Source: Allacma fusca
Taxonomy: Eukaryota > Arthropoda > Collembola > Symphypleona > Sminthuridae
Direction of reading: 5' to 3'
NCBI GenBank assembly: GCA_947179485.1
Contig: OX359245.1
Coordinates: forward strand, 70,295,067-70,359,066
Length of the DNA stretch: 64,000 bases
The translations under genes were made by a program, and so were the position numbers. The notes beneath the pieces are model-generated. The model had not been told where the DNA came from. It saw nothing but the letters and a program-made list of their open reading frames with translations, and did not search any database. Below, in pieces: positions 6,076 to 31,888 of the stretch; positions within the stretch are counted from its first letter, which is position 1; each line of letters opens with the position of its first letter.

Positions 6076-6238
6076 ATGTGTACGTGACATTTTCTCACAT
6101 TAAAATTAATTATTGAATCTTATCTAAGAAAGATTCGTTTGCGATGGAATTGTTAACGTTTGAAAAGGGTGTGTATTGTCAAGACTGTGAAGGAAGTCGG
6201 AGGAAAATTTTTGTTGGAAGAAATTGTTTTTGTCAAGA

Positions 6239-6870
6239 ATGTCGGAAGGTAAGGATATTTTTTTGGAAAAAATATTAGTGAGAGAAGTTTTTGGGTTTGT
6301 GTGCATGTGATAATTTTTACAAGTACTATAATTAATATTACAGTGTGCAAATGGGTTGGAGGTTGCTGGGGTTGCGTGAATACAGGAGATAAATGGGCTC
6401 TTTTGATGGATGGAGACCAGTGCTGTGTTGGGGACGTGAGCACTATAGATGAACCTGTGGAAAAGGTTGGCTACAACCTTTCTGATTGTTCTGATGAGCC
6501 GTTACACCAGTCGTCTGTGGGATTGATTGTTGTTGTTGTGGTGTTGGGTAAGAGCATGTGTGTGCCTTCGGAGGATATATGATGGTGGGTTGTATATATT
6601 TATGTGAAAAAATAAATGTACATATTGTTTAATTTATTAGGATTGATGGTACTGGGAGCGGTCATTGGGATTCGGTGGTGGCGGAGGAGGCAAGCAAGTT
6701 TCATCCGACGACCCTTACTCCCGAGAGTTCGTGGAGTTCCTGTCGGGCTTGATATGTTGGGCCGGGACAATTGGGGGATGGGTGACAGTACTGTCTATGG
6801 AGGGACAACCTTTGAGCTGGTGAGGTTGAGTTCCATTCCTGAAGAGGATGAGGAAGACACAATGCTGTAA
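6239..6870 (+). CDS. Left-end Cys-rich single-pass membrane protein (cargo)
   Basis: Exons proposed: 6239-6248, 6344-6547 and 6641-6870 (147 residues). I do not recognise the family. The N-terminal part, about 65 residues, is Cys-rich (C-x5-C-x2-C, then a CC pair and one more Cys) with no signal peptide. A hydrophobic segment follows (VGLIVVVVVLG continuing with LMVLGAVIGI), then a basic juxtamembrane stretch RWWRRRQ and a tail of about 60 residues ending in the acidic PEEDEEDTML. Both introns are phase 1, the second inside the membrane segment. The right-end gene (30064-28956) has the same layout. Topology is probably N-out. The first exon is the weak point. A longer upstream frame at 6144-6248 with five cysteines uses the same donor but joins out of frame. 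A role in virion envelope, cell entry or host-surface interaction is only a guess. Confidence 0.6.
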
Positions 6871-9589
6871 ACTTTTGAAATATATTTCATTTGAGAGGTA
6901 TGGACTGACTGTCGTGTATTCTTTTAATACAAAACAAAATCTTAAAAATTTTGATATGAAAGAATACATATTGTAATAGTCGTGCAAATAAACAAATAAA
7001 CAATACTATGAGCTAGAAATGGTTTAAATGTGTTGACCATCTAAATTTAACATTTAAGTTACTCAATTTAGGAGAGAGTTAAGTTTCAAGAATAACATGC
7101 CATACATTTCTAACGTTATATTATGCTATTGTGATCTGGCATATTACTCCTATGCAGGAATTATCATTGTTTTAATGCATGGGAAACTCTTTCTGGAAGA
7201 TGTAAATAATTTGTGCAAGGGAATTTTCTAAACCTGCCCTAGAAAATGAACAATAATGAGAGGCCTGGAGATCCCGGTGTAAGTTTTAAGGGTGAGTATT
7301 AATGATGATAATATTAGGTAAATTAAGTTCAAGGGATTTAATAAAATTCACAATGATGAAAGGATTTTCGGGGTGAGAGAGCTGCGTCAAGTTAGTTCCT
7401 CTGTGAGCGTGAGAACAGTCCTTGTTTGGTTTACGTTAAGGTTGAGTCAGTTGGAGTTTGTGTGTACTTTCGGCATTGATGGTAAATCAAGAGCATGATA
7501 TACATGGACTTGGAGCTCGCTGACTAGCAATAGCAGTCTTGGTTCACATTTGTGGAGGACTATGTTGGAAGTTTTTGGAAAATATACCGTTCATAATAGG
7601 ATTTTTCTGTCATGTGCACTTTTCAGGTCTGAGGGAGTGAGTGTTGAGCCAGGGAAACCGGTACACTTCGTTGCCAGTCGTCCAGGAGCATAAAATATTG
7701 TTGAGCAATAAGAAACTTACATACACTTGAAAGGGGAGGAACATACAGTACAGTACAAGGGATGAATTGAGATCGCATAGGACTACACACGAGCATTCCT
7801 ACACTACACCATTTCATCTCTCTCTCTTGCTCTCTCTTCCAACTATCTTCTCAAGTGCAGGGTTCAAACAAGTTTAGGGTCTAGTATTTGGGGAATTTAT
7901 ATTGCTGAGGATGTACCTGAATAAAAAGATATTTCCAGGGAGGCCTCCTTTTCCAGTGACGGAATACCTCCAATGTGTCTGCTTCCTCATTCAGATTATG
8001 CTGAACAACGTTAGTATGGATTTATTTATAGTCAGGGAATTACAGGAGTTTTCAACAACAATAATTCGAACAGAGGGATAAAACAATTTCTCTCAACTCT
8101 CTTCCTGTGAGAGGATCAGCAAGAGAAAGAGCACCTGGCCATTGTGGAGTTTTGACGGTTGGTTATCTTGCTCCATTGCAACTTTATGTACTAATCCCTC
8201 ATAGGTGTACATAAGTCATAATTAAATATTACAAATGTATGCAGGTAAGTATCCCTCTCCTACACTAATACTCCCAGTAGCAACTGTGAATACAGTTGTT
8301 TTAATCATTAAGTGCGTGCATCAATCCTAATAGGACCATACGCAGAGAGCCAGACATTTTGGGATAAGAAGCATCAGCAGACTATATAGTGTGGTTTGAA
8401 GGACAATTCCAGTACAATCCCCTGCAGTATTCTACAGTAATTACTAAACTGGGAAAAATACTGAATGGGGAAAAATTGTCGCTGTAAATTCTGAGAGATA
8501 ATATCTCTACATTCAATCTGCCTTCGAAAAGAACTCGTTCTGCTTCTTAGCTTTTCCATCATACTTTACTACATAGGACCACTTAATTTCTCCTCTCCCC
8601 CCAGCTTACCTAAAATTCGGTACAAGGATCTGTGAATATGAACACACGTCAAGTGTAAGGCAGGCAAAAGGAAGGAATTGTGGAAGTTGCTGGAAGTGAG
8701 AATGGAATGCAAAGCACAAACTTCATTATAGCATGCTTTCGTTCTCAAGAGTTACTTGTAGTAAATAATGTATAGGGTGGTGAGGAGCATCTCTGGTTTA
8801 CTTACTTTTCTGTGAATACCTTCTGTCAAGGAAGTTCGTTATTAAAGATCTCCTTTCATACTCTCCCTATCATTTTTTTCCTTTAATTTCTTACATGCAA
8901 TGTATCATCATCCTTTACTCTGACACCTCCTTATTACTTTTAAAAGAATGTATGAACTTCGGAAGCACGAAACGATATAATAATTAGATGTGACATCATG
9001 TAATTACTTCTTGTTATATTGAAACTTTTTCCTACATTTATTTGTATTATTATCTCTTGGCATATAATAAACAGATAATTATTGAAGTCTCAGTGAAGAC
9101 TTAAGTAATCTTCAAAATCTTTTTTAATGCGAAACAGAATCGAGGGAAGTGGGATTGAGTAAAATATGTCCAGATTGCAGGCGTATCAGACACAGGTGGC
9201 ACACTTTCAATACCTCTAATAGTCATGAAGGGAATCGCTCAAGATGGTTTTGGTAGGTATGTACATATTTATCTATGTACACGAAAGCATTGAAAATACG
9301 CATTAGAACTTCCGTTATCAAGAGGTCTGGATTGATGGCTCTGTTCAGGTGTTAGGAATATAGAAAGGAACATTATTTTCTGGTCGGTTAGTGACTACTC
9401 AATATAACATACATACGCATTGGAGTGTAGGAATTACCTAATCTCATCTCAAGTAAATTCGGGCACGGTACAAGATGACAAGTATGAGTTTTCTAAGAGG
9501 AAGTCTTTGCAGGAAAAATCTTTAATAGAATTCATACGTACACATGTATGAACATGTACGTATATGTGTATGTAAGCGAACTGATCCTA

Positions 9590-9745
9590 CTTACATGATG
9601 GGGCGATATCGAGAGCTCAATAGTGCAGATGACTAACCACAAGGTTTTCCCTCCACTTTTGCATTGTCTGCTAGACTTGAGTTGAAGAGTCGGAAGAGCT
9701 GACATTATTGTGTAGCAAGATGACTCCGGACTCATCACTGACCAT
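9590..9745 (-). pseudogene. Possible mariner-type transposase relic
   Basis: One minus-strand frame reads ILLHNNVSSSDSSTQV, then a stop, then QTMQKWRENLVVSHLHY, a second stop, and ALDIAPS. This resembles the end of mariner transposases, where a LLHDNA-like block is followed by a Trp-containing helix and HPPYSPDLAPSD. The two stops and substituted catalytic region mean it is dead. The match is short, so the call is tentative. Confidence 0.35.
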
Positions 9746-11589
9746 GTAATAAATAATCCTAGCAATTTGAGGATTCTTCAACCTTTACTTTAGACTGCAG
9801 GCTTGAATGGGAACAGTTGAAGTTGTAATAAAACAAAAATAAATACAATAAAATGGCAAATAAGAGAGCAAACAGACGCTCCACTGAACTCTATGTCATT
9901 TGTATGCTCTCAAACTTTGATATGGGGAACTTTTTCTCCTCATTCAACAGCAGTGGGCAAGAGCAACAACAAGCGTTCCTCTGCTTAGATCAACATTTAT
10001 AAAGGAACATTTATTTTGTCTCGAATACATTGCCATCGCATTACTCACTAGATCTCCTATCCCCTTCCTGCTTCCTTACATACACCTGGAGGTTTCTCCT
10101 AACTCATAAGTAACGAGAGAGATTCCTTCCAGGATATATGCAGAAAGGATGAAGAGTCCATGTAGCACCAATTTCCTCCTATAGTTTATGTACCTAGAGG
10201 TGTTGGTTAGTTTAGACGCACTCTGAGCTTCACCCCAACTTGCACTCCGAGAGACAACTAGACGAGGAGTCACAAATGTAGCCAAATAAAGTCAAGAGTG
10301 ATACTCGGCACTGCGGAAGCAGGCCTACGAATATCTGTGGTAGTAAGTCTACTTACGCATTCGAACAAAATCTGATTAAATGAATCTTAAAGAATATTGC
10401 AACCACAATATGTGTTGAAAATCGGAATTATACCCTGACTAAATTCAATTATTACATGCTTGAGCGTACATACTTGTCAATTTTAAGTCTTTTTTCCTTT
10501 GAGAGAACAAATGAGGTCGTTTTTCCTAAACTTCATCCCCTTGCGTCGTACTTGGTTTCAATGATTCTTATGACGAGAGTTGAATTAAATTAGAGGATAG
10601 TTGAAAGAATGGGAGGAAAAAAAGCTGGAAAACTTGAGTCAAGGAATTCATCTTCATTTCAAGCTTTAATTCAATTTCACACCTGTTTTTCCTGCTCCTT
10701 TGGATTTGACTAATTTCTGTTTACAATATGACACGTACAGGCTTAATTCATGGGCTTTTTGTTTGAAAAACGTACCATTCAGATTGCTTAACTAAACTCA
10801 TTGCTCTCATTTAATTTCATTAATGTCATCGGATAGTTTTTGAGTCTCCGCATTGCTTGAGAAGTGCGAAGGTCTAAAAAGTGCATGAGCTCTACCTCAG
10901 CTTTCTTTGCCTCATTTGTCAACCGTGCAAGGGGGAGGGGGTGTCATCATAACAGTCTCAGTCAAGCTGTAACTTCTACAATCACATATTAGAAAATTAA
11001 CTCTGTGATAAATTGGAATGTTACCAATGAAATCTCCTCCCATAGAAAAGTGTTTGACAAGGAGACTGGGCTCTTACAGTCAGAAGTGACTGTAAATACA
11101 ATAGAATGAAATAAAACTCATAATTATACGTAGGCAAATATTTATAGAACTTTGCCACAGAATTTGTAAGGTCTCAATGTAGAAATCATTCATAGCTCAA
11201 CCTCGGGCTAGTATCTCTGCAAATGTCAACATGACATTTGTGAGTGCAGTATCGTGGTCGTATTTGGAATTGAAAAAAAACATACACAAGCTAAACCATA
11301 CACAAGCTAAAAGTACTCTCACAAATAAGCACCCTGTTTATTTACATATATGTTTCCATCGGCTGAAAGCATTTCCTCCAATACTTATCTATAGCAATAA
11401 CTATGAGTGTGACGCGCATTTGTGCATAAGAGCTGAAGGGGCTTTAATATATAAAATCTATCATAATCACTTGGACTGCATAAATACATGAGCGTATATA
11501 GCTCCCGTTAGATTAGTGCGTGGGTTGAGCAGTCCAAGCTGTCCTTCCAGGAAGGTTAAACTTATAAGGGAATCAAAGATATGTACTAA

Positions 11590-11695
11590 GTACATTTTTT
11601 GATGTTCCAAAAAAACAAACTGTACAACGGAAATGCATGCGTGTACATTTTTTTGATGTTCCAAAAAACAAACTGTACAACGGAAATGCATGCGT
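11590..11695. repeat. Tandem duplication, 2 x 53 bp
   Basis: Two nearly identical 53-bp units, each starting GTACATTTTTT and ending GCATGCGT, are followed by a partial third (GTACAACTGCATGCGT). Several ORFs in this area on both strands are products of the duplication. No function is evident. Confidence 0.85.
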
Positions 11696-12116
11696 GTACA
11701 ACTGCATGCGTAAATGAACCTAATGAGTTTTTAAGTATAGGTAGCACTAGTTCGTCAAATAATGTGTCCAAAACCACGCCCTTTCCCACAGTCTGAACAG
11801 TGACATTGAATAATTATTTTCCGTGTACTTTTTTTGTTGTGTGTGTGGGAAACAGCCAGTGGAAAAGTCCCTCCATCCGTTCATATCTCAATTTATGTAC
11901 TTTAGCCCTATGAGAGGAGACTTACAATTTCAACGGGAGAAAATACCAAAGTGTAGGTAGTTGTATATTTTCAATGCATCTCTAATGAATATGGCTCCGG
12001 AAGTTTTGTAGATACCATTTGCAGTAGCCTTCATAGCAAGCCTTGAAATATCATTCGGTTTTTTCGTGTGAGAGCAGTAACATCTCTCTCTGAATATTCT
12101 TATTGAAATTTCAAAC

Positions 12117-13492
12117 ATGACACAATATTACAGACTGTGTTCTGTGTGCTCTCGAAACATAAATATTTCTTTAAGCAGAGGATCTGTGCGATGGGACAAC
12201 AAAACCGCATTTCAAATAACAGGAGTGAAAAAGTTTCGAAGTTTTATCGACCAATACGACGACTATGGGAGCAAAATTTGGAACATTGATTCCATTGTGT
12301 CTATTGTTCGCAATGTTGCTGGTAGTAATGTTTGTGGACATGAGTCCCACTTCAAGTGTTTTTTCGGTCACTGTCAGAGCGTGCTATTGACACACCGAAG
12401 TGCCAACAGTTTCACAAGTGGCGATTTTATTGTCAAGTGCCCACAAAACTTGTGTGGTGTTAAATTTCGCTTTGCAGGCGATCTGAAAATAGTGTCTCGA
12501 AACCTACATCACATTGGGAAACACAACTGCTTCGACTTAGTGGCAGAGCAACGTAAGTGCTTTGATTATTTATGATTAATTAGATTAATTATTTTATTAT
12601 ACCAATTAGAGTACAGGTTGTAGGGACTAGAAAAAACAATTTAGATAATGTAATTAATTCCTAAAATTGATTTGTAATTATATGCACAACTTGTTGTGAC
12701 TAAAAGGAGAGTAATGTTTAAAAATTTGCACTGGCTGAAATTTACTATAGTAAAAAGCTCCAGTGGAATTATTAAACATTACAATGACCCTTTTAGTCAC
12801 AACAGTATACGGGTCATGCCCAAATTCATACACGATAAATTAGAAGGTAATTTCGGCATTTTTTTTACAGAAATAAGATTCCAAAAACGTCTTGAGGAGA
12901 TAGAAAAAAAGATTAAAGGTTTGGTGCGCACCGAGCCCAAGAAGCGAAAGCACGTCAACAGGGAGGAAACTAACGCTAGCTCCACTGCTCCAGGTAAAAT
13001 ATATTTTAAAGCATTGTTTATTCGATATGGAAATTAATAATTTCTAAAACGTTGTCCAAATGCGAGATTCTGTATGTTATGATTTCCTAAAGTCAGTATA
13101 AATTTTTTATTTCAGAAATAGGATCTGTTGGAGTTGCAGAGGGGAAATGGGGAGGAAAATGCTTGAAGAGCTTGAAGGAAGAGCTACTCAAACTTCCCTC
13201 GGACTTGCAGATACTCCCAATCCGTGTAGGGAAATGTATGAAAAAACTGGAAGATTCTTTAGCACCAGACCTGCAACCAGAGGTGAAATTAGACTTAAAG
13301 TGTTATGAGGATATTAGTCCACCATCATCCCCTCAACCAGGTCCGTCTCACAGCAATGTCAAAGATTGTGAACTATCCGAATGGATAGAAGCAAATCTGA
13401 AGCCCAATGATATTGATGATATGCCAAGTTTGTCGGACCTTCTTGGGGAGGGTGACGTGTTTGAGTTTTTCCAAACACCGGGAGTAGAGTAA
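12117..13492 (+). CDS. RING-H2-like protein with acidic C-terminus
   Basis: Exons proposed: 12117-12552, 12751-12993 and 13116-13492 (351 residues), both introns phase 1. The ATG at 12117 opens the frame. Exon 1 contains Cys8-x2-Cys11, then Cys73-x-His75-x2-His78-x2-Cys81 and Cys108-x4-Cys113, the order of ligands in a RING-H2 domain. The first loop is long and the last pair is spaced by four residues where two is usual. The middle has a Lys-rich segment (KKIKGLVRTEPKKRKH) that may be a nuclear signal. The end is acidic with LSDLLGEGDVFEFF, similar to a transactivation segment. A ubiquitin-ligase or transcription-regulatory role would be plausible for an early viral gene, but no close family is recognised. 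The acceptor of exon 2 is the least certain junction. Confidence 0.6.
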
Positions 13493-14073: not shown

Positions 14074-14965
14074 TTAATATGTTTGAGTATCAAATTCATC
14101 ATCGGGAGAATCTTCCATTGAGAATTTCGATGGAGATGGTGGTGGAGTCCAACCTGGTCTATTTGGTCTTTTACGAATTTGGGGTGGTTTAGTTTCGAGG
14201 TTTTTAGAAAGCATAAAGCTTTCTAAATTTTGTATTCCATTTAGCCGTAACGCTATGGTAGGGCCGGGCCAGTTACCATATCGTTTGGACACCTCATGAG
14301 GGACAGGGTTATTTAATAAGAGCTCAGGAAGTCCTGTTGTGGAACTTATAACAAGTCCCACACGAACTGAGTTCAAATCCAAATCAGGAGTCGACCAGAA
14401 TTCCTGTCTATCACCTTTCCATGAATATGTCCTTGACTCCTTTCCCTTCAAATACGGAATACTGTCAAGACTTCCGTCTCCTTCTTCCTGCTTCTTAAAC
14501 ACCTGGTCTAGTATCATAGATAAAAAAGAAAGAATTGTTGTCCCTTGAAACTTTGAAAATTTTACAACTGTTGGCCTTCCACTCTGGGATTGTCTTCCCA
14601 AAAAGAAAAATTCTGCATTCAATTCAGGATGAAGCTCTAGTCTGCCAAGCACGTTGTTTTCAATCTAGAGAATATTTATTAGTTGTTTAACATGAAAATG
14701 GTAGTTAGAACTAAACTGAAGACACGAATTGTTTAATTTTTAATTATTTATAACAAAGGGTGATACGTACCACTGAACTATCTGGCTGTTCAAAGAATGT
14801 CCAGCTCTGAAAAAAATCAGAGTTTTGTCGTTTCGTCACACTCATTGTAGAGGGATCGTAATACTCCAGCTTTACAACAGGGCGCTTCGAAGCACGTTTG
14901 GGTGCTGTAGATCTTGTCCATGTTGTAGAGTTGCGGGCGAAATCACTATGTCTAGCTTTGTCCAT
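14074..14965 (-). CDS. Unknown Polinton protein with acidic C-terminal tail
   Basis: Exons: 14965-14771 and 14664-14074, phase 0, giving 261 residues. The donor GTACGT and acceptor CTCTAG fit, and the junction keeps the frame. I chose the ATG at 14965 because the longer upstream frame is hydrophobic and unlike the rest. The N-terminus is basic (SKRPVVK region). The middle is a mixed alpha/beta-like region with many aromatic residues (FFQSWTFF, YSWKGDRQEFW). The C-terminus is proline- and basic-rich (IRKRPNRPGW) and ends with a short acidic tail (MEDSPDDEFD). A folded aromatic core plus acidic tail is seen in single-strand DNA-binding proteins, so that role can be considered, but I recognise no family. 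It is divergent from the helicase gene, sharing the 14,966-15,378 upstream region. Confidence 0.65.
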
Positions 14966-15378
14966 GACTTGCGGCAACTGAATGAGAGAGAGGGCGATTA
15001 CAAGCTTACTGTCGAATAGGGAAAATAAGAGTACTTTTAGTAATGCATGAAGGGGGTGTTTATATACCAACCTCTCTACCCGCTGCATGGATATAATTTC
15101 AGACTAGTATTTTTACATGAGTAAAATTGTTAGCACTTCTGACGTTCAAATAGGATACCGTTTCTTTGAACTGAAAAGGGCTACAGCTCTTGCTCTATAA
15201 TTCATTTTCTATCTCTTGCTACAAATTCCCCTCCTATGAGCATTCATGCATTGAAACTCTTGCGGGTCTACCCAACGGGAAGTTCTATCTATCGGACACT
15301 TGTCGTTGGGAAATTCTTTCTGTGTGTGCTCTCACAAGTGGTCTCCTGCTTAAACTGTTCATTGTTTGTATATTAATC

Positions 15379-16937
15379 ATGTTGTGTGAGGACATGTCCG
15401 AGTATCATTTCAAATTGTGGAGAAAATCTATGAGGAATGTGAAAGTCCACCCTAAGTTACCCAACGTTCCATTTGAAACTTTAAGTGGAACTCAAAGAGC
15501 GGTTATCAATAGTGTTAAATGTCATATACAACAACCCTTTATAGAACAAATTCGTGCACCATTTAATTTAATTGTGGTAGGCGCGGCAGGGTTTGGGAAA
15601 TCCCAAATAGTGTCACATTTGAAATATATTTTAGAATGTGAGGAGAAAGCAAGAGATGACTTTACACATATACTTGCTTGTTTTACTGGATCTGCAAGTT
15701 ATCTCGTTGGTGGTAGAACTTTACATTCCGCGTTCAAATTGGATGTGTATAATCATAAGAAAAATAATTTTGTAGTTAAAAATACTGAAAAGTTTCAAGA
15801 ATTAAAGAACGTGAGCATTATAATTATCGACGAATTTACTCAAGTTGGCATGCATCTCTTAAAACAGATTGATGATGTCTTGAGGCAAGCAGATCCAACC
15901 AATTCCCATATTAACTTTGCATCACGAAGTATTATATTGGTCGGTGATATTTTCCAGACATTCCCAATTGCTGATTTTCCTATATTTTTCCCTGCTAGGA
16001 AGAATGTTGGTATTGATTATATTTACAAAGCATATAAAAGTATTGCAAATATATGCGTACTTGACATACCATTTCGTCAGGATGGGGAAGACCAAGAACA
16101 ATTTAGAGAGTTACTCAATCGTCTAAAAAGAAAACAGTGCATATCAAGTGATGTTGAATTACTGAAAACCAGGTTACGAGACAGAATTTCATCAGAAGAG
16201 AGACAGCAATTCCGTTCAGCAATACATATATTTCCACTCAAAGCTCTAGTTCGAGAGCACAACAGGTGAATAAAATATTAGTGACAAATCATATTTTAAA
16301 AATTATTTGCATCACACATTTTTTCAATTCCATAATTTACAGTTACATGCTGACTAAGGAATTTAGTACGGATGACATTGTGAAAATTGATAATGGTCTA
16401 CACATGTTGGAGATAGCAATAGGTGTTCCGGTAATGCTTGAAAAAAATATAAGCATTAATGATGGATTGACAAACGGAGCCAAAGGTGACGTAATTCATA
16501 TTCATTTTCACAAATCCGCAGGAAAACAGAACGAGGTTAAGTTTATACTTGTGGATTTTAAGAACTATTCTGGAGATAAGTATGTTATTGACAATGTTGG
16601 AAGACGAGGGTTTCCTATTTTCCGTATGATTGAATCTGAATTTAAAGCCAGCACAGGAGAATACGTGTCGGTGAAAAGATTTCCATTGGTACTTTGCTAT
16701 AGCCAGACAGGACATAAGGCACAAGGGGCCGATTTAAAAAGAGCTGCCGTATTTTTAGGCAAGAGTGAATTTGCTACTGGACTTGATTTTGTGATGTTAA
16801 GTCGTTGTAAAAAACTATCAGATTTAATGATTTTAGACCACGATATAAGCTTGCAACGTTTTGTGCATACTAAATCCAATCCAACCCGACTGCAAGTACA
16901 CGAGGAAAAGCGATTGATTGCATTAAAAACATTTTAG
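15379..16937 (+). CDS. Pif1-like superfamily 1 DNA helicase
   Basis: Exons 15379-16265 and 16343-16937 (phase 2), 493 residues. It should unwind DNA by ATP hydrolysis. Visible motifs are Walker A GAAGFGKSQ (about residues 68-76), Walker B IIIIDEFTQ (147-155), motif III GDIFQ (189-193), and in exon 2 the Pif1 signature region GVPVMLEKNI..DGLTNGAKG, motif V-like YSQTGHKAQGAD and LDFVMLSRCKK. I chose the ATG at 15379 because the open frame further upstream begins only with TTG. An ATG at 15394 or a missed 5' exon is also possible. The protein is shorter than typical cellular Pif1. SF1 helicases are not part of the usual animal Polinton core as I know it; here one sits between the unknown minus-strand gene and integrase, suggesting help in protein-primed replication or strand displacement. 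Confidence 0.88.
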
Positions 16938-17075
16938 CAATAGTCAATACAAATGATATATTTAAATTTTTAATTAATTATAAGTTCTTGTTTAACTTAT
17001 ATTTTGTCCGGTTGATATGTGAAAGTCCTAATTATATACCACCAACACAAGCTAAATTTCTCATCATTAAGCACC

Positions 17076-18246
17076 ATGCATGCAGATGAAGCATACGTGA
17101 ACCAAAGTTTATCTGGTTCGTACTCAGGAATTTCAGGGTTTTTAAAAAATAGGCCTGAGTTTAAGGATAAGAATACAGTTCAAAATGATTTACTCAAATT
17201 ACAATCGTACTCACTTCATAAAAACGTCCGATACAAATTTCCCAGAAGAAAAATATTAGTTAATTTCATTAATGAAGTATATGCTGCTGACTTAAAAGAT
17301 ATTCAAAATATCAAGCATTGGAATGGGAACAATAATTTCATTCTTTTTGTTATTGATGGAATGTCAAAGAAGCTCTATACTAGACTAATTAAAACAAAAA
17401 CAACCGAAAATGTAATAAGTGCATTCAAATCAATATTTAAAGAAGCTAGTGCTACACCTGTGTACATATTCACGGATCAGGGGAAAGAATTTACAGCTAA
17501 ACCAGTAAAGCAGTTCTTCATGGATAATGGCATTAAGCCTTATCACATTTACAGTCATATTAAGGCTTCGTTTGCAGAACGCGTGATTCGCAGTATTTTT
17601 TCAAAGCTGCAGCGTTATATGACAGAGAATAATACAAAAAAGATTAGTAATGTTCTCCAGCAATTTACAGACACGTACAACAATACATATCATACTGCAA
17701 TTGGTAAATACTTTATTAATGTATTACTTATTATTAATTATAATTATTAATATACTTCTTTAATGTATTTAATTACTTATATATTTAGTCTTATTGTAAC
17801 ATAATCCCTATATGTAGCTCATGATAATATTAATAATCTCTGTAAGGGATGGCGCCAAATGCTGTTAGGATTGAGGATCAATACAAGATTTGGTCGCGAT
17901 TATTTGGGAAATATTTCGAAGACATTAATAAAGAAAGGCGAGCGCCGAAATTTAAAATCAACGACTTAGTTAGGATCAGTCGAGCAAAGCTGATATTCGA
18001 AAAGGGTAATGTTTACTATATCATTATAAGTAACCATACACATGGTTTATTAAGCTCAGTTGGTCAATAAAACGCATACTTGCAGGATATTCTGCGAATT
18101 TCAGCAACGAAATATTTCGGATAACCAAAATTCAAAATACATTTCCATGGACATATCTGTTAAAGGATCAGACTAATAAACAGGAAGCTATAACAGGAGG
18201 ATTTTACGAGGAAGAATTAACGTTAGCTGCACCCCGTTCCTCATAA
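17076..18246 (+). CDS. INT: Polinton integrase (rve, DDE) with C-terminal chromo-like region
   Basis: Three exons, 17076-17703, 17847-18005 and 18086-18246, both introns phase 1, 315 residues. It would join element ends to host DNA, producing the 6-bp duplications seen at the insertion. The catalytic triad is visible as Asp72 (AADL), Asp134 (FTDQGKEF) and Glu168 (FAERVIRS), with 33 residues between the last two. The N-terminus has the conserved SGSYSGISGFLKN segment of Polinton integrases. The C-terminal exons encode FKINDLVRISRAK and a region ending GGFYEEEL, matching the small SH3/chromo-like tail of the family. The ATG at 17076 precedes the conserved region; the longer frame upstream starts with GTG. 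It lies 6 bp before the next gene. Confidence 0.92.
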
Positions 18247-18252
18247 AAAATC

Positions 18253-19800: not shown

Positions 19801-19802
19801 TT

Positions 19803-20117: not shown

Positions 20118-20120
20118 AAG

Positions 20121-21548
20121 ATGGAGACAGGATCAATATTTGACGACAAGCCGACAGTATATTCGGGAAGTACGCAAAGTTTAAGGAGCGAGCTAGATAT
20201 TTTTTCAGTTCCAGCAACTGATATAAGTACGACTTCTGCTTCTGAATACGTTCCGTATTTTCCCATCCTCCCAATCAGAGAATCGTTCAATCCCTTACAG
20301 TTTCTAGTATTGGCAGAAGGAAATGGGTACATTGATTTGAATGACTCATTTCTGTCTCTTACCTGTCGCATTGTAAAACAAGACGGATCAATATGCGATG
20401 ATAAGAATGTAGTTGCACCAAGTTCCAATTTCTTTCATACTATGTTCTCCAATCTGGAAGTTTATGTCAACGACGTTATTGTGTCTGACAGTGGGCAATT
20501 TTACCCGAACATAGCATATATGAATAGATTACTCTCTACAAATCCTATTCAAAAGGAAGGCGAGCTACAAACTGAATTTTGGTATCCAAATACGAAGCGT
20601 CAGAATTTTGTTATTGAAGATGCCGGATTTAAGGCTCGGTTTGATCTTTCAAAAAATTCTCAGCAGTTTAGTCTGCTGGGAAAGTTGTGCTGTAATCTAT
20701 TTAATCAGACGAGGTACCTACCAGCTGGTTCAAGTCTAAGAATTTGCTTGAGGAGGTCTGCACCTGAGTATTGTTTGGACTGTAGCAGTGACACCGTAAC
20801 AGGGGTCACTGGGACACCTTATAAATATGAAATTGTTGACGCAGTTTTCTATGCCTCTAAAAAGACAATAAGTCAACCTATTATAAATATGCATAAGAGT
20901 AAGCTTTCTAGAGGGGAAACGTGTAAGTACCCAATGTCAGATGCAGAAATACGTACATTTACAATAAACACTGGACTAACAACTGCGACTGAGGGAATTG
21001 TGTTGGGTAGAGTACCAAAGATTATAGTGTGTGGAATTGTTAGCTCTGCTGGATTTAATGGAAAATTGTCCAAGGATCCATTCAACTTTATTGACAAAAA
21101 CATTTCCGAAATGAGTTTCACTTATAATGGAGAACAACTTCAGTACAAGAAGCTAGATTTCAACTTTAAGAGCACTAATAATGCAGGAAGTGACAGTTTT
21201 CTTTTAGCATTACGCTCTTTAGGACGCACGGCAAGCTCTCATATTTTAGGCAATGGAATCAGTAGAAGTACATTCAAAGCCGGTAAACACTATTTCATAA
21301 TATTATTAAAAATATGATATAAGACAAGTTTTGATAAAATTTTAATAATGTGAACAGGTAACGTATTAACTGCCATTGAGATACTCCCTAGCCAGGCTAA
21401 CTCGCTAGCTGTAAACGCTAATGGTCAAATTAAAGTATCATTAAAATTCAAGCAACCGTTGGACGAGCCAGTGAATGTAGTTTTGTATTTACACAGTCAA
21501 TCTATGATGACTATTGATCAACATCGAACTGTTGTATTGGATCACTAA
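20121..21548 (+). CDS. MCP: Major capsid protein (double jelly-roll, Polinton type)
   Basis: Exons 20121-21282 and 21358-21548 (phase 1), 450 residues. The protein would form the hexon-like trimers of an icosahedral shell. Family features seen are FFHTMFSNLEVYVNDV followed by a Tyr-rich helix and LLSTN (residues about 110-150), and, in exon 2, the closing GQIKVSLKFKQPL and VNVVLYLHSQ strands with IDQHR near the end. Length and layout fit Polinton major capsid proteins. The intron of 75 bp has a clean GTAAAC donor and ACAG acceptor. The stop codon directly abuts the protease ATG (TAAATG). All this is motif-level recognition; a structure prediction would settle the fold. Confidence 0.85.
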
Positions 21549-22007: not shown

Positions 22008-22095
22008 AGATGTAATAAAATTACAATTTAAAACATTGTGCTACAGCAATTTTTATTTAGTTCTTAAAAAGGTGCATCAAAGAAAACATATAAAG

Positions 22096-22743: not shown

Positions 22744-22748
22744 TTGTC

Positions 22749-23075: not shown

Positions 23076-23766
23076 AGTCATGAAAGTTATTTCACCTGAT
23101 CTATACGAAAAGTTAATCAAAATTTACAATGAAAATTTCACTAATGAAACACATGATAAAGAAACTGAGGTAGGGAATTCATTAAATACAGAAAAAACAA
23201 ATCCCGCACATCCTGTACCGGAAAAGACATTAAATCATGAAAATAAAAATATTGCAAATCCTGAGAACATAAAACATCCTGAAAGTGATCAGTCAGAAAC
23301 CCAATCTCGTCAGGAAAATAAAAGGCCTGAAATTGAATCTCTAGACGTTGGCAAATTCAAGGGCACACAAGTATGTTGTTGTAATCCATCTGAAGAAACT
23401 GATAGCAGATCAGTATGGAAAAGCTTTGATGAGGTCGTTGACAATAAAAATGAGCCGTCAAAACGTAAATCACATGAAGAGCCATCTTTGGAGCACGAAA
23501 TCAATGTAAAACATGCAAAGCCAAGTATGACATTGCGCTCGCGTAATAAACAAAAAGGTCACGGTAGAAAAACAAAGGGAAAGAATAGAATTAAATTAAA
23601 GAAATTTACAAAACGTAAGTTAAAAGCACTTAAGAGAGAACCTAAACGTAAAACGAAACAGTCGCATTCAAGAAAGAAGCACGAGACATTGTGTCGGAAA
23701 AAGAAGAAGCAGAAAACTAGATATGGATTACAGCAAGATGGAATCGTCAAACGAATTTCTAATTAA
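23068..23766 (+). CDS. Hydrophilic protein with very basic C-terminus
   Basis: 232 residues. The start ISPDLYEKLIKIYNE is helical. The middle is polar and repetitive (Asn, Glu, Pro, Lys) with a Cys cluster VCCCN near residue 110. The last 75 residues are dominated by Lys and Arg (KTKGKNRIKLKKFTKRKLK, CRKKKKQK). It overlaps the preceding frame by 8 bases and the following by 44. A nucleic-acid-binding or second core protein is the natural guess. Disorder is probable. No family is recognised. Confidence 0.65.
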   Translation: MAKVMKVISPDLYEKLIKIYNENFTNETHDKETEVGNSLNTEKTNPAHPVPEKTLNHENKNIANPENIKHPESDQSETQSRQENKRPEIESLDVGKFKGTQVCCCNPSEETDSRSVWKSFDEVVDNKNEPSKRKSHEEPSLEHEINVKHAKPSMTLRSRNKQKGHGRKTKGKNRIKLKKFTKRKLKALKREPKRKTKQSHSRKKHETLCRKKKKQKTRYGLQQDGIVKRISN

Positions 23767-23944
23767 TAACATACATATGTTATTGAAAGCTATTATGAAT
23801 GACGACTATAGAAGCAACAACACCTATACAAATTTTAATGGGCACCTAGGGGTAGGAGGAAGTAAGTTTGGTATTGACTATGTGATAAGCAGTGATAGTT
23901 ATAGTACTTCCCCCCTTGACATGTTATATCCTTTTATGATATAG
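23723..23944 (+). CDS. Short overlapping ORF, 73 residues
   Basis: The ATG at 23723 lies inside the end of the previous gene, in another frame; a second ATG follows at 23738. The protein is not basic. It reads ESSNEFLINNIHMLLKAI, then a Gly/Ser/Tyr region, and ends SPLDMLYPFMI. Dense overlap is typical of viral genomes and the tract continues the gene block, but 73 codons could also be chance. The DNA contains a partial inverted repeat (GGAGGAAGTA near 23,850 and TACTTCCCCC near 23,910). Confidence 0.4.
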   Translation: MDYSKMESSNEFLINNIHMLLKAIMNDDYRSNNTYTNFNGHLGVGGSKFGIDYVISSDSYSTSPLDMLYPFMI

Positions 23945-24304
23945 TGTGGATCTTCACCATTATCCTTCTTTTCGTTTTGGTGCTAGCCAAAATGATAAAA
24001 TATGGTCTATGCGCCTATTCCAAATGGGAGACTAAAAGCGGGAGCGGAGAAACTACTGCATTGGAGGGTTGCTTCAATTGCATTTCATTGAAGAACGCCG
24101 AACAATGAGCTCCGAACAAAACTCCACTCCACTCCGCTCCCACAACGTACCCTTTGAAAGGGACGCTTACCCATCACACAACAAAACAGGACACTGCAAC
24201 ACGGTAATAAATATTTAATTATATCATTACATATAAGACTGGGAGTAGTATAGTATTTTTTCACTTCTATACATCTCTCATTATTACAGATACTTAGATG
24301 CAGT
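23945..24304. other. Spacer before the polymerase gene
   Basis: 360 bp without a frame. It contains GC-richer direct motifs (GGGAGCGGAG and inversely CTCCGCTCCC near 24,033 and 24,133), which could pair or bind a factor, and a possible splice acceptor TTATTACAG at 24,281-24,289 just before the polymerase ATG. This is the likely place of the polymerase promoter or 5' leader. Confidence 0.4.
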
Positions 24305-27300
24305 ATGCCGTACTGTAACTTCTACTGTCGTACACATGTTCTATACGACTCCCACATAGAACAATGTCACCTATGTGAACACTGTAACAAGTATTGCAGT
24401 CATATGCACATGCATAATTGCTTATATCCGAAGAAACAACTTGCACATCCGGAGCGAGGGAATCACTTGAATCTACAACATTTTTCTGAATATTCAAGAA
24501 GTAATTTAGGAAGTGTCATCAAGTACAAGTACATGAAACCAATTGAGACAAACGACATTACATCTGCTTTTGAAGAAATCCGACAAGATTTATTTGATCT
24601 TTTGAAAAGTTTATACGACATTCATTCAAGTATGAAAGTTGAGTTTGCTGTATCTGTCCTCATGTCCAAGGACATTTTATTGGAGAATAATCAGTATACT
24701 TCCAAGGAAGCTATTATATACTTCAAATCAAAACACTTTGAAATGTTTAACACAGTGAATATGGACGTGCCATTTCTTCAAGCTGTATCAGAAATAATTG
24801 AACAAAAAAACCAATTTGTTTCCCACGGATCTTCTTGGAGGATAAGTGCAATTGAATCCATGGAAGTAAAGATCGGGGAATTAAGGTTGTTGAAAAGTGC
24901 TGTTGGGAAATCTTTTTTACCAATGCCCTTCAAATCTAGAAGAAATGGGATAATTAATTTTCGAAATAAAGACAATTTTTGTTTTCGATACTGTCTAACA
25001 GCTGGATTACTCTGGGATAGAAAAGTGACCGAGAACCAATCGCTAGGTGACGACAATTCAAATCTGAGATATCATTCTACATGGAACAAATTCTCGCATT
25101 TGATTGACTTTACTGATGTTAATATGGGAGAAAATGTTAATCCGTATGAAGATATGACAACGTTTGAACAAAAAAACAAGGTCTCAGTGAATATATTCAC
25201 ACATCACGGTGAGAATGTTATCCTAGCAAGAAAGGGATTGTCAAATTCAAAAAAAGTGGTCAATTTGTTTGTAATCCAAAAACTAGAAAATAGAATACCA
25301 AGATACCACTACGTTCTCATTAAAGATCTTGATGCATTTTTATGTGCTGGAAGTACACACAAAACCTACACATGTCACGATTGCTTCCGATCATTTAACT
25401 CCACTTTAAGTTATGTAAAGCATTCAAAGATCTGTTCAAAGTCAGCTAAACCAACCGAAAGACTTTATAGTTTCCCGCCCGAAGGAAAGGTTTTAACATT
25501 TGAAAGACCAGAACTGACAAACTGTCAACCATATATACTTTTCTTTGATTTTGAATGTTATTCAGTGAAAATAAATGATAATATTCACGGTAAGACACAA
25601 ATGAGATTTGAGTACCAGCCTGCAAGCTATTCGTTAGTTATTTTACACAACACTGGAGATAAGGCTGAGCTAGTTACTGCAGAGTATTATGATGGACGTC
25701 ATCCTGTCAAACATTTTTTCCATCGAGTGTTCCTATGGGCTCAAAAATTACTTTGCGAGATACGCTCAACAAATAACATGTTAACCCCGACACCTGAGGA
25801 AAGGAAAGCGCATGAACAAGCAACGCATTGCAAACACTGTAAGCGACAATTCACAATTCCTAAGGATTCGGTTCAGGAAGGGTTTGATGCATTGCGTTTT
25901 GATTTGAATGGAACATTACTGAACGACTCAGACGAAACAGACTACGAAGAGGAACTTACAATAAAGAAATCCAAGCGAGATGCACCAATTATTAAAACAT
26001 ATCACCATAACCACGACTCTGGAAAATACGTTGCATCATTATGTCAGTCATGCAACCTTAAAATTAAATATAAGAACCAGCTGACGTGTGTCGCACATTG
26101 CGGATCTAAATTTGATTTCCATCTTCTTCTTAAAAACTTAGAAACTTCTGCCTTTGATGCTAGCAATATCTCAGTTATAGCTAAGTCTAAAGAAACCTTT
26201 GTACAAATTGAAATAAAGTCAAAGGATTTGTATATTCCAATTCTAAATAATCAGTACGGGAATCAACAACAATTCTCAAAATCTTACAGCGGTAACCGTA
26301 AAGTGGGTGTGAGGTTCATTGATTCTTTTAACTTTTTACCTGAATCACTAGCAGATCTTACTGAAAGTTTGAAGAAAGAAAAATCTCCTTTATTCGAAAT
26401 CGTTAAAACAGTATTAAACAATTATATTTGTGAACCAAATCAACTAAACGGAATCTCTAATGATAGCATAGACCTGCTATTAAAAAAGCTTCCATACCCC
26501 TACACCTTCCTGTCAGGTCCGAACGTCTTGAAGGATGGAGTACCTATTCCCGAAATCCAAGAATTCCATAACGACATGACTCATGAAGAATGTTCACAGG
26601 AAGATTATGAAATTATCTTAAAAATCTGTTCACTTTTCCAAATCAAAGACTTTCGCATGTACACAAAACTCTACACAATCCTGGATTCTGCTCTATTAGG
26701 AATTGTGTACATCAACTTTATTCAAAATAGTTTTAAATCCTACGGTATCGATCCTTCGTATCTCTGTACTGCATCTGGATTTGCTTGGCAGGCATTTCTG
26801 TACACTACCGGTGCAGACATTCACTACATTCGAGACAAGAAAATGATTGATTTAGTTCGGGAGGGAATTCGAGGCGGTGTCTCTATGGCGGCTAAAAAAA
26901 TTGTTTGCGCTAACAATGAGAGAACTCCGTTTAATTTTAACGCAAGTGAAGATCGAACACATATTCTCAATCTCGATATAGTTTCCTTGTATGCCCATGT
27001 CATGGAGACCAACAAATTCCCTCATTCAGGTTATGAATGGGTTGATGTTGCGGATTTAAAGAAAATTGATTGGCAAAGCCCACAGCTTCATTCAGACGAT
27101 AATAATACCGGCTACCTAATAAAGTGCACTCTCGAATATCCAGACGCAATCCATGACTCGACCTCTGACTTACCACTCTGTCCAGAGAAAAAACGTATAA
27201 AAATTATCGAGCTGTCTACAAGACAACAGAATATTCTACAAAAGCTGAACAATGCTCAACAGATTCTAACTGCACCAAGACTCACATTAAATCAATACGA

Positions 27301-28415
27301 TAAGACAGACTATGTACTACATCATAAAGCGCTAGCTTTTTATCTCTCAATGGGAATGAAATTGACAGATATTAAGTGCGGCTTCAAATTCATTCAAAAA
27401 CCTTACTTGACAAAGTATATAAAATATAATGTCGAGAAACGAAAAGTTGCCAAGACTGAAACGGAAAGGAGTGCTCTGAAACTGGGTACGTCAACCGCAT
27501 TAATTAATATTAAATAGAAATCCTATATGATGTTTTTATTTATAGGAAATAATTCCATCTTCGGACGCCTGCTTATGAGAGACGATAATTTATTGAAAAT
27601 TATTTTCTGCTCATCTCGCGCACAAGTTCATAAGCATCTCTCCAACGACAGATGCGTGGATTTCGACTGCCTATCAGATAACGTAACAATGGTTATGCTC
27701 GAGCCCGAAACAGTACAACTCTCCAAACCAATCCAAGCTGGTCAAGCTGTTTTGGATTTTGCTAAGGTTGCCTACTACGAAGCATACTACCGACAACTAC
27801 ATGATGTGTTTGGATCTAGAGTATCTTTAGCTTATACTGACACAGGTTGAATTGATTTTCTCAATGATAATGACAGAGGTCTTGAAATTTTATACTAATC
27901 CATACATTTTTATAGATAGCTTTCTGGTTGTCGTTAAGGATCCTCAGAACACGCTTTGGACAGATCTTGTTCAAAATCGAAAATACTTCGACTTTAGCAA
28001 AATTCCGAAAGACCATCAACTGTTTAAAGACTTCTCTAACATCCCTGACCTTCCTAGATTTAATGCAGGAGAGTCTGGGAAGATCAAGATAGAAGACTTA
28101 GATATTTCAGAAATTTGTACGCTAAAATCAAAACAATATTCAATTCTAAGATTTAATGATACTTGTGAATTAAAGTGTAAAGGGATTCCTCAAAGATCGC
28201 TGAAAAGATACTGCAACCATGAAGAATTCAAGAAAACTATAAACAATGAAAGCATAAAAGAAATCAAAATTAATGCAATACGTTCTTACAAGCACTCATT
28301 GTTTAATATTAGTATTAATAAGTTAGCTCTACATGCACTTGATGTGTACAGATGTTATTGGGATGAAAATGATCTAAATGCAAGCTTGCCATTCGGGCAT
28401 TATAAATTAAGATAA
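24305..28415 (+). CDS. PolB: Protein-primed family B DNA polymerase
   Basis: Exons 24305-27485, 27546-27845 and 27916-28415, both introns phase 1, 1326 residues. It replicates the element. The N-terminus carries Cys/His clusters (residues 4-45) and a C2H2-like finger YTCHDCFRSF..H..IC (about 354-378). Exonuclease motifs: FFDFECYS (about 413), HCGSKFDFHLL (about 597) and YTILDSALL (about 790). Between the first two lies a zinc-binding HNH/Endo VII-like insertion with HCKHCKRQF and later HHNHDSGKY plus CQSCN (about 512-590). Polymerase motif A is LDIVSLYAHVM (about 890). Motif B (N-x-I-F-G-R) directly follows the first intron, and motif C (YTDT..) is split by the second intron, which restores its final Asp-Ser. 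Length and Zn/HNH features are usual for Polintons. All catalytic motifs appear intact. Confidence 0.92.
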
Positions 28416-28955
28416 ATAATAAATAAGCAAACTTATTTATAGTATATTTATTATTATGAATGTAATTTATAATATTAGTATTTTAATAAAACAATGCACT
28501 GGCAATTTATTCTGCTTTAACTTATTCTTAAAATGTAATTATTGAGAAACTCGTTTCACTTTGCCTCTCAACAACTTTACTTTGCCCCTAAAAGTTTAAC
28601 TGTGTTATAACAACGGTTTAACCTATAAGCATGATGCAACCAAAAAAATTTAAGCATATGGCACTTGAAAACTAAAAATAAATTAAGCATATGACACTTA
28701 AAAACTAAAATGCATTTATTAGGAAATTCGTTTCACTTCAGCCCTAAAAAAATTCACTTTGCCCTTAAAAGTGCAGTATGCCCTGACATTGGTTTGACCT
28801 AAAATCATAAAGCTACCAAAAATAAATTAAGCATATGGTACTTGGAAAAAAGAAATATTTATTCGGAGAGACACACATCAACTAACAAAAAAACGGAGCC
28901 ATCACTTCCCTTCGCCCCTTAAATGTATGCCTCTAACAAATTCAGTAAGGAAGAA
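28416..28955. repeat. AT-rich spacer with diverged tandem repeats
   Basis: Between the convergent polymerase and right-end membrane-protein genes. Two units of about 173 bp start near 28,534 and 28,708, sharing TTCGTTTCACTT, TTACTTTGCCC or TCACTTTGCCC, GGTTTAACC or GGTTTGACC, and AAGCATATGGCACTTG. The block AAATTAAGCATATG occurs three times. No coding frame is seen. Confidence 0.7.
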
Positions 28956-30064
28956 CTAAACACGCCCACGGGCCGTCATCGACCGGGTGACCGGGCGATG
29001 TGCCTCCGGAGTCAGGATCCTGCGCCGTGGGATGTCCGCCAATACCGCTTCGCCCCCTCCAACCAGATCCACTTCCGCCCACACTTGCGCTCCCGGCTCC
29101 ATCTCCCTTCCATCACCATTCCCTCCGTCGCCGCCACCACCGTCTCCACCACCCCCCACAAACCCTCCAGCACCACCACCCCCGTTTCCATCACCCCCCA
29201 CAAACCCTCCACCACCGCCATCGCCTCCTGGTGCTTCCTCCATCATACGGACCAGCTCAATGTGGTCAACGACCAGGTGTTCGCGCGGAGCCCGTGGTCC
29301 TCGAATGGCCCTCCAAAGCGCTCGCGCAGCATCGGCCACATCCTGGAGTCGTGCCAGCCTATCCCGAACAAAATCCACCAGAATGTGTCGGTAGCGATAC
29401 CAGAGGCAACCAAAAAGCCCGACACCAACCACACCACCACCAATTCCTAGTGCTATAATAATAAAAATGCAATTAACGATACATACATACATTAATAGAT
29501 ACATGCATACATACATACATACATACATACATACATACATACATACATACATACATACATCCATACATACATCCATACATACATACATCCATCCATACAT
29601 ACATCCATCTATACATACATACATACATCCATACATACATCCATACATACATCCATACATACATCCATACATACATCCATACATACATCCATACATACAT
29701 CCATACATACATACGTACCTATGACCCATCCAGCCGATCCTTCCGATGCGGGGACTTCCCGGTCACAAAATACCTCCTGGAAGCGGCCACACACATGTCC
29801 AGGTCGAACAACCCCAGCAAGATTGATAGGAGCCTCATCCAGGTCAACCAAACACCCACAATTGCCCACCATGTCGCTATAAAAATAGCACGCTTTTGAG
29901 CAAAGCTCGCAATCCGCATCAAATTTTGAACAAGCTAAAAATACACAAACATATATACACACAAATAAAATGATATACATACATACAAATAAAATCATAC
30001 ATATAAACAATAAAACATAAGTGCCTAAATATAAATTATGAATTAAATAAAACTACTTACCCAT
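28956..30064 (-). CDS. Right-end Cys-rich single-pass membrane protein (cargo)
   Basis: Exons proposed: 30064-30061, 29934-29719 and 29452-28956, all junctions phase 1, 238 residues. No known family recognised. The 72-codon exon 2 has C-x6-C-x2-C, further cysteines CGC and two more. The membrane segment starts in exon 2 and continues in exon 3 (ALGIGGGVVGVGLFGCLW), followed by YRYRH, a helical part (LARLQDVADAARALWRAIRG) and a Gly-rich tail of about 60 residues ending with basic IPRRRIL and TRSMTARGRV. The arrangement matches the left-end gene (6239-6870). Exon 3 is strikingly GC-rich compared with everything around it. Exon 1 would supply only the start codon, in a good context (AAAAATGG). 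Alternatively translation starts at an ATG at 30010, where a hydrophobic leader runs directly into the Cys domain. Intron 2 is largely a microsatellite. Envelope, entry or host-interaction roles are guesses. Confidence 0.6.
29480..29716. repeat. CATA/CATC microsatellite in an intron
   Basis: About 235 bp of CATA repeats interspersed with CATC, lying inside the second intron of the right-end membrane-protein gene. Read in either direction it gives artificial frames (Tyr-Ile-His or Met-Tyr-Val-Cys repeats). Confidence 0.95.
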
Positions 30065-31877: not shown

Positions 31878-31888
31878 TTTCAGTTTTC

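Follow-up and report, generated by a model that had tools for sequence, protein, structure and literature searches.

Two small genes, p1 and p2, modeled as spliced, lie inside the opposite ends of a Polinton of ~24.9 kb in the genome of the springtail Allacma fusca. The element occupies positions 5421-30332 of the window, which is the whole stretch of 64,000 nucleotides (nt) that was analyzed (contig OX359245.1 of assembly GCA_947179485.1, positions 70,295,067 to 70,359,066 of the forward strand). Both genes encode cysteine-rich proteins with a single membrane helix, and comparison of profiles places them as two branches of one family. This family was previously unrecognized and falls among accessory viral membrane proteins, and its two types recur as a pair in diverged Polintons. 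The proteins are tentatively read as N-out surface proteins whose tails would recruit adaptors, likely for an actin-driven passage of the element, or of its particles, from cell to cell.

Structure of the Two Genes

The genes at 6239-6870 (+) and 30064-28956 (-) had been proposed from the sequence of the window in an earlier model-made note (the original prediction). Their location inside a Polinton is confirmed by the AGTAGT ends, the CATACA duplication, and the integrase and PIF1 genes. The spliced models consist of the following exons.

6239..6248 (+): p1 exon 1, start micro-exon ATGTCGGAAG of 10 nt, ending in phase 1
6344..6547 (+): p1 exon 2, six-cysteine ectodomain and start of the helix; symmetric phase 1-1, 68 codons
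6641..6870 (+): p1 exon 3, remainder of the membrane helix, RWWRRR basic stretch, tail, and stop
30061..30064 (-): p2 exon 1, start micro-exon ATGG of 4 nt, ending in phase 1
29719..29934 (-): p2 exon 2, eight-cysteine ectodomain; symmetric phase 1-1, 72 codons
28956..29452 (-): p2 exon 3, membrane helix, WYRYR, predicted amphipathic stretch, Gly-rich tail, and stop

The two genes face inward from the Polinton ends and would give proteins of 147 (p1) and 238 (p2) amino acids. Both introns of each gene are of phase 1 with GT..AG borders. As had been predicted, one precedes the cysteine domain, and the second, with its first base at 6548 in p1 and at 29718 in p2, interrupts the membrane helix or falls where it begins. 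Since the unspliced reading frames stop after 23 codons (p1) and 3 codons (p2), the two proteins require splicing.

The proposed order of a cysteine-rich N-terminal domain, one helix, a juxtamembrane basic stretch, and a variable tail is borne out in both sequences. The cysteines are spaced C-x5-C-x2-C-x15-CC-x20-C in p1 and C-x6-C-x2-C-x3-C-x9-CGC-x20-C-x7-C in p2. Each protein has a single strong hydrophobic stretch (Kyte-Doolittle mean of 3.19 for p1 and 2.18 for p2 over 19 residues), and neither spliced model has a hydrophobic signal ahead of the cysteine domain. The N-terminal parts contain 3 basic and 11 acidic residues (p1) or 5 and 11 (p2); the corresponding numbers for the 20 residues past the helix window are 8 and 0 (p1) and 5 and 2 (p2). 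An N-out/C-in topology is favored because the N-terminal part is acidic and the stretch after the helix is basic, and from this charge asymmetry and the lack of a cleavable signal it is predicted to be the most likely one. With Pfam, nothing above the cut-off was obtained for the window proteins (a membrane-helix model at E 0.31 for p1; none for p2).

An alternative-frame open reading frame (ORF) at 6144-6248 (+), with a zinc-ribbon-like CxxC...CxCxxC arrangement, was considered as part of p1 and rejected, as it is out of frame. It ends at the p1 donor and has a weak similarity to the C-terminal domain of GRXCR (E 0.0086, below the cut-off).

Of all 600-base windows in the 64 kb, the three with the strongest G+T skew are located in the gene units 6170-6919 (+) and 30050-28851 (-), introns included, and a microsatellite in the second intron of p2 contributes part of the skew. 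A replication-gradient origin is not favored, as the skew is weaker in the outermost repeat windows than in the gene units; 5570-5719 nevertheless has a G+T of 0.65. The skew was also rejected as a family feature: 10 of 13 distant genes are without any segment (0 to 560) above +0.25. Transcription-linked mutation is perhaps the source.

A Family with Two Branches

The springtail's own genome was searched with both proteins. At least 102 exon matches were obtained with p1 as the query and at least 137 with distant p1-type members; the p2 query gave 48 and distant p2-type queries gave 57. With one row kept for each gene, there are at least 112 p1-like and 72 p2-like loci. The p1-like number is a lower bound because only part of the candidates was scored (150 of 173 and 150 of 257 in the p1-type searches). 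Second rows of a gene were dropped (14 of 48 and 3 of 57 in the p2-type searches; 3 of 113 for PIF1), as were second-exon and repeat rows in the p1-type searches. The p1-like list contains C1:75384906, which was seen only through the fetched region of its p2-like neighbor (L059; L-numbers name fetched loci). Several diverged subfamilies are present within this one genome.

The spacing C-x5-C-x2-C-x15-CC-x20-C is found in 8 of the 9 p1-like ectodomains counted, and L045 has 21 residues in place of 20. Six of the 7 p2-like ectodomains counted (L030, L031, L035, and L036 being omitted) have C-x4-6-C-x2-C-x3/4-C-x9-C-x-C-x19/20-C-x7-C, and in all 7 the last cysteine is preceded by intervals of 19-20 and then 7 residues. 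The p2 pattern is that of p1 with two more cysteines, the fourth and the last; p1-like proteins have a conserved Gly at the fourth position and no last cysteine. The arrangement looks as if one disulfide had been gained or lost. By its sequence the p2-like protein of L058 lies between the two types: it keeps the last cysteine but has Gly in place of the fourth, and its CC/CxC site reads CCC.

Homology of p1 and p2, which had been claimed from the two sequences, is not significant in a direct comparison (BLASTP E 0.35; shuffle p values of 0.29 for the ectodomain, 0.18 for the tail, and 0.036 for the whole protein) but is recovered with family profiles. Whole-length p1-like and p2-like profiles were aligned by hhalign with a probability of 87.8% and a P value of 3.3e-6. 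The ectodomain profiles alone gave 48.1%, a P value of 1.8e-4, and a score of 23.7, which was reached by none of 200 column shuffles (best 20.9) and none of 200 shuffles that spared the cysteines (best 20.2). The profiles thus point to two branches of one family whose homology is seen only at this level. An origin of p1 and p2 as copies of the terminal repeat is rejected, in agreement with the original prediction, because the matching repeat arms end before both genes and the proteins differ.

A protein database search with p2 returned two relatives, both A. fusca proteins (E 2.7e-52 and 7.9e-24), and none from other species; for p1 the search found none at E values up to 10. No such spliced cysteine-rich membrane family was found in the Polinton/Maverick literature, most of the subscription literature being outside the search. 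At L054 (C1:5790375-5798559) four p1-like matches stand in tandem with a spacing of ~2.6-2.7 kb, and the repeats in the fetched part are 99.8% identical.

Recurrence of the Pair in Polintons

The PIF1 helicase of the element was used as the Polinton marker. Its genome search gave at least 113 matches from the scoring of 112 of 416 candidates, or at least 110 loci after merging. A PIF1 match within 15 kb is found at 57 of the 112 p1-like and 45 of the 72 p2-like loci, versus 0.84% of random positions. Seen from the PIF1 side, 87 of the 110 loci lie within 26 kb of a family member, and both types are present at 16 of them. Several distant p1-like loci adjoin PIF1 homologues (31-36% identical) together with homologues of the ORFs at 12081 and 14074 of the window.

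Conservation of the pair in related elements, on which the prediction had been staked, was found: a p1-like gene lies within 26 kb of 23 of the 72 p2-like loci, with ~1.1 expected at random. The 26-kb limit was chosen after pairs at 24.7 kb had been seen, and 22 pairs are left if C1:75384906 is excluded. For the other 49 p2-like loci no p1-like partner was detected. The pairs have these layouts.

Convergent, 20-25 kb: 7 pairs including the window, and one more at 7.5 kb
Convergent, 5.3-6.5 kb: 7 pairs
Tandem, p2 then p1, 2.2-4.2 kb: 6 pairs
Tandem, p1 then p2, 4.2 kb: 2 pairs

These results make the pair a real one that turns up again in diverged elements. The placement at opposite ends holds in the window and in one layout and does not extend to the other three.

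Splice Anatomy in Distant Members

Distant gene models were built using a home-made splice scorer. With it, a phase-compatible start micro-exon could be placed at 7 of 10 distant p1-like loci and at 3 of 9 p2-like loci, one of which (L032) is weak. Six of the p1-like micro-exons are 16 nt long, and four encode a start of MNP-. An ATGG/GT start is proposed in the distant L034 and in L025. Random acceptors yield a micro-exon in 186 of 3000 trials (6.2%); this control was narrower than the search (exon of at most 28 nt, intron of at most 300, and one acceptor, versus 100 nt, 700, and up to three acceptors), and the micro-exon matches counted all fall inside the narrower range. The helix is split by a phase-1 intron with a helix score above 2 at 5 of 11 p1-like and 5 of 9 p2-like loci. 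Three of these models (L046, L053, and L034) have donor scores below 0, and the remaining loci have a weak model or none. Both the start micro-exon and the helix intron are thus predicted to recur in some distant members. The available text of PMC8097293 gives intact vertebrate Mavericks as free of introns; the present models suggest that some Polintons, contrary to these, depend on host splicing.

Near Copies and Selection

Near copies were collected from the A. fusca genome (392.7 Mb) at 9 p1-side and 10 p2-side loci. The ninth p1-side locus, L045, is too diverged for alignment by blastn. The p1 model is open in 6 of the 8 alignable copies; the other two have one stop each, and one of these has also lost the first donor. 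Exon 1 of p1 is kept in all 8 aligned copies and its donor in 7. For p2, 5 of 10 copies are free of internal stops and 5 are broken, and the second donor could not be resolved by alignment in two of the open copies (L020 and L025).

The ratio of nonsynonymous to synonymous divergence (dN/dS, NG86) of p2 is 0.18-0.23 for the window versus the five open copies (dS 0.15-0.84) and 0.17-0.23 over 11 comparisons. Purifying selection on p2 is firm; for p1 it is suggestive. Three further p1 copies are identical to that of the window. At three other loci the p1 DNA is 99.8-100% identical and the p2 DNA only 87-90%. Because p1 is near-identical where p2 is not, and the p2 differences between copies are patchy by region, the p2 end is read as a mosaic formed through recombination between elements.

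The Host Element

The ends and core genes of the Polinton are listed below.

5421..5519 (+): left terminal inverted repeat, starting AGTAGTG; target duplication CATACA just before
30231..30332 (-): right terminal inverted repeat, starting AGTAGTG at 30332; CATACA after; a further similar block extends to 30156
6013..6061 (+): block upstream of p1 matching the right end; partner 30156-30204, 84% complementary
30156..30204 (-): block matching the left end, ~90 bp ahead of the p2 start codon
15175..16269 (+): PIF1-like helicase ORF (PF05970, E 1.7e-16), the genome-wide Polinton marker
17016..17750 (+): retroviral-type integrase (PF00665, E 1e-10), as expected of a Polinton
24254-27517: candidate ORF for a protein-primed PolB, assigned by eye and position
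20118-21317: capsid (double-jelly-roll) candidate ORF, assigned by eye and position

The AGTAGT ends, with a perfect 6-bp duplication of CATACA on either side, agree with the Maverick end motif (AGT)2 given in the accessible part of PMC8097293. The integrase and helicase assignments by Pfam are firm. An adenain-like protease (PF00770, 21.1 bits versus a cut-off of 21.3) and a packaging ATPase (phrog_2666 terminase, E 1.1e-4) are borderline. The PolB and capsid candidates are named by neither Pfam, NCBIfam, nor PHROG, and a PDB search was uninformative. Among viral contigs zero relatives were obtained for the capsid candidate, p2, the capsid alignment, PolB, and the integrase (p1 was not searched there); the PolB query found zero relatives in bacterial and archaeal genomes.

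The PIF1 frame stops at 16269 and continues in another frame (15175-16937, +). The open frame of 364 residues is the same in the window and in five near-identical copies; at distant loci it exceeds 500 residues in some and is 300-380 residues in others. The accessory ORFs 12081-12575 (+) and 14074-14664 (-) have homologues that are 30-42% identical beside p1-like genes elsewhere and appear, from these matches, to form a conserved accessory block. The ORF at 13091-13489 (+) has an L-x-C-x-E string ahead of a Ser/Pro-rich stretch and matches adenovirus E1A in Pfam at E 0.012, below the cut-off; a retinoblastoma-binding early protein is possible. By eye, the Polinton interrupts a C2H2 zinc-finger-like reading frame (30084-31886, -), and a second zinc-finger ORF is found at 56880-58502. 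A fragment at 60259-60475 (+) resembles the capsid-candidate protein (tblastn E 7e-7) and is a relic of another Polinton. The open frame at 2135-2812 (+) consists of degenerate peptide repeats of the LTNICDNRFLGHG type in tandem.

Proposed Function and Alternatives

A Y-E-x-P/V motif followed by Y-x-N is found in 4 of 9 p1-like tails (L046, L052, L055, and L056) at distances of 22, 21, 14, and 20 residues, respectively, and the tyrosine of Y-x-N is the sixth or seventh residue from the C-terminus. The exons with the motif pair are otherwise 35-58% identical, and other members of the same subfamilies agree. The pair was chosen after the tails had been inspected, and it appears in this order in 0.08-0.54% of shuffled tails. 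The p2-like tails of L027, L030, and L033 are 279-325 residues long and Pro-rich, with a conserved end and, by eye, a likely coiled coil; these three and the p2-like tail of L058 contain N-P-x-Y.

In the explanation preferred here, the start codon on its micro-exon would be spliced to a symmetric 1-1 exon for a domain of 60-70 residues with six or eight cysteines, and this exon would be spliced at the membrane helix to the exon for the basic juxtamembrane stretch and variable cytoplasmic tail, so that spliced nuclear transcripts would be required for both proteins. On the surface of the expressing cell, p1 and p2 would be single-pass, N-out/C-in proteins with the conserved and probably disulfide-bonded domain directed toward neighboring cells or partner proteins. 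The tails would recruit cytoplasmic adaptors, and this would most likely produce an actin-based protrusion through which the element or its particles could be transferred to another cell.

Vaccinia A36 and reovirus p14 each have a Nck site with a Grb2 site downstream of it, the distance being 20 residues in p14 (PMC9333988, available text), and both proteins are described as recruiting N-WASP and Arp2/3 for actin assembly in spread and fusion (available text of PMC9333988 and PMC7830690). Actin-driven transfer is the best single reading because of this Nck-Grb2 arrangement and the proposal made for the Drosophila protein sORF2, and it is put forward tentatively. The way of working would be like that of FAST p14, sORF2, and A36; relatedness is not implied. 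An envelope, entry, or host-surface function, as first suggested for the pair, is plausible. The early analogy to fusion proteins draws indirect support from the tyrosine motifs of the sister tails, which the window tails lack. A more specific version appears unlikely as a whole: a two-protein, splicing-dependent surface machine, in which a disulfide-locked N-out pair with p1-like tails converged on the p14/A36 cassette would spread the Polinton from cell to cell by actin protrusions (e.g., from soma to germline) and not as a free virion. Vertebrate Maverick particles had not been observed according to the available part of PMC8097293. For the passage of Polintons between cells and into the germline, the often paired, putatively spliced and surface-located family is a concrete, testable candidate.

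A number of results weigh against cell-to-cell transfer, as do the departures from FAST proteins described in the last section. The motif Y-E-x-P/V is taken by us to be Nck-type and Y-x-N to be Grb2-type by general SH2 preferences. No Y-x-N is present in the tails of window p1 and p2 or of L045, L049, and L059, the L054 tail has a lone Y-x-N with no Y-E-x-P/V ahead, and the cassette of a Nck site and then a Grb2 site ~20 residues apart is absent from the window proteins. AlphaFold gave a predicted local distance difference test score (pLDDT) of 51.5 and 40.4 for the two ectodomain exons and no fold; because of these low values no fold is claimed and no fold search was made. Among family members no Pfam match is above the cut-off (best 7TM_GPCR_Sra, E 0.0024, for a p1-like member), and PDB gave zero matches at E values up to 1. 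The cysteines are not invariant, with Tyr at the last cysteine in L030 and no fourth cysteine in L031 (a broken copy), L035, and L036. No PIF1 match lies within 15 kb of 55 of the 112 p1-like and 27 of the 72 p2-like loci, in part because only 112 of the 416 PIF1 candidates were scored. Selection on p1 is weaker: its dN/dS is 0.30-0.61 for the window versus five differing copies, two of them with a stop, and one copy-to-copy pair has a dN/dS of 3.48 with 12 nonsynonymous changes and 1 synonymous change.

The main rival is a growth-promoting signaling role, which uses the same motifs. As receptor mimics, the proteins would recruit Grb2/Shc-type adaptors through their tails and push resting cells into permitting viral DNA replication. 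The gammaherpesvirus terminal membrane genes K1, K15, and LMP2A and polyomavirus middle T are comparable. Y-x-N in 4 of 9 p1-like tails and N-P-x-Y in the p2-like tails of L027, L030, L033, and L058 are consistent with this role, and so is the L-x-C-x-E string in the ORF at 13091-13489 of the same element, although the E1A match (E 0.012) is below the Pfam cut-off. The window's own tails have neither Y-x-N nor N-P-x-Y, and the p2 ectodomain has changed little (dN 0.052 and dS 0.613 versus L020), unlike K1, which is hypervariable. Signaling is regarded as unlikely.

The conservation of the p2 ectodomain bears also on host evasion or superinfection exclusion, in which p1 and p2 would act as surface decoys or retention proteins in the manner of the spliced adenovirus E3 membrane proteins. 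Genes outside the core set that are spliced, encode a cysteine-rich ectodomain, and exist as many diverged copies, together with the mosaic p2 end, would suit such proteins. Selection on the p2 ectodomain is purifying and not diversifying, however, and no match to receptor or ligand families is above the cut-off in Pfam or PDB. This role is held to be decidedly unlikely.

The co-occurrence of two paralogous partners and the even number of cysteines in both window ectodomains recall the small disulfide-bonded proteins of the poxvirus entry-fusion complex, and p1 and p2 could be virion-associated membrane or entry proteins in a particle membrane. Nothing here points to an enveloped particle, and the Pro-rich tails of L027, L030, and L033, which extend over 279-325 residues and have a likely coiled coil, suggest cytoplasmic partners; a place in the virion is improbable.

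A springtail gene family with a normal host function could have been captured and merely carried by Polintons. Symmetric 1-1 exons, as found here, are a typical feature of extracellular modules in animals. A Polinton gene with introns is unusual, with none given for intact vertebrate Mavericks in the available text of PMC8097293. Roughly half or more of the loci adjoin a Polinton PIF1 gene, the others not having been checked for host genes, and capture would bear more on origin than on function. Capture is held to be very improbable. A lack of function, with p1 and p2 as chance ORFs or as decayed leftovers of an ancient terminal duplication, would suit the failure of the two proteins to align alone and the seemingly disrupted state of two core frames of the element, and is hardly credible given the p2 dN/dS of ~0.2 and the splice sites, cysteine spacing, and pairing kept across diverged members.

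Comparison with Known Systems

FAST proteins have ~100-200 amino acids and an ectodomain of 20-40 residues (PMC7830690, available text). Like the FAST proteins p10, p14, and p15, p1 and p2 are small and single-pass, are predicted to be N-out/C-in, and have no signal peptide and a variable tail. A polybasic motif follows the helix in both (8 and 5 basic residues in 20). The Nck and then Grb2 sites of p14 are 20 residues apart, and four p1-like tails have such motifs 14-22 residues apart. The 147 residues of p1 fit the FAST range, whereas the 238 of p2 exceed it. The hydrophobic window is preceded by 63 (p1) and 71 (p2) residues, about twice the FAST length, and ectodomains in the family have 60-71 residues with 6-8 cysteines. 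The proteins start with MSEV (p1) and MACS (p2) in place of the MGxxxS/T myristoylation motif, and the CC of p1-like proteins sits in the ectodomain, unlike the palmitoylated di-cysteine of FAST proteins. The best hydrophobic moments in the endodomain, values without a control, are 1.25 (p1, in a stretch with prolines) and 1.76 (p2). In contrast to FAST proteins, p1 and p2 come from a DNA element, are predicted to be spliced, and often occur as two paralogues.

To our knowledge, vaccinia A36 has no cysteine-rich ectodomain. It is a poxvirus egress protein whose motifs are missing from window p1 and p2; the likeness is that of a membrane protein with a Nck-type and then a Grb2-type phosphotyrosine site in the tail (PMC9333988, available text). 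Adintovirus Macc is a polyphyletic capsid-core class, and the text available describes no cysteine-rich spliced pair for it or for the Maverick accessory genes. Both share with p1 and p2 the position of variable genes outside the core modules, and membrane-active proteins have been proposed in adintoviruses.

The sORF2 protein of the Drosophila MDG1 group has 63-107 amino acids and an ectodomain of ~30 residues, and neither a cysteine-rich domain nor splicing is described for it in the available part of the preprint (PMC11952523). It is likewise encoded by a mobile element, is small and N-out in the membrane, and has a patch of basic residues, and it has been proposed to act in the transfer of capsids from soma to oocyte (PMC11952523, available part). 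By analogy, sORF2 suggests that a mobile element can use a protein of this kind.

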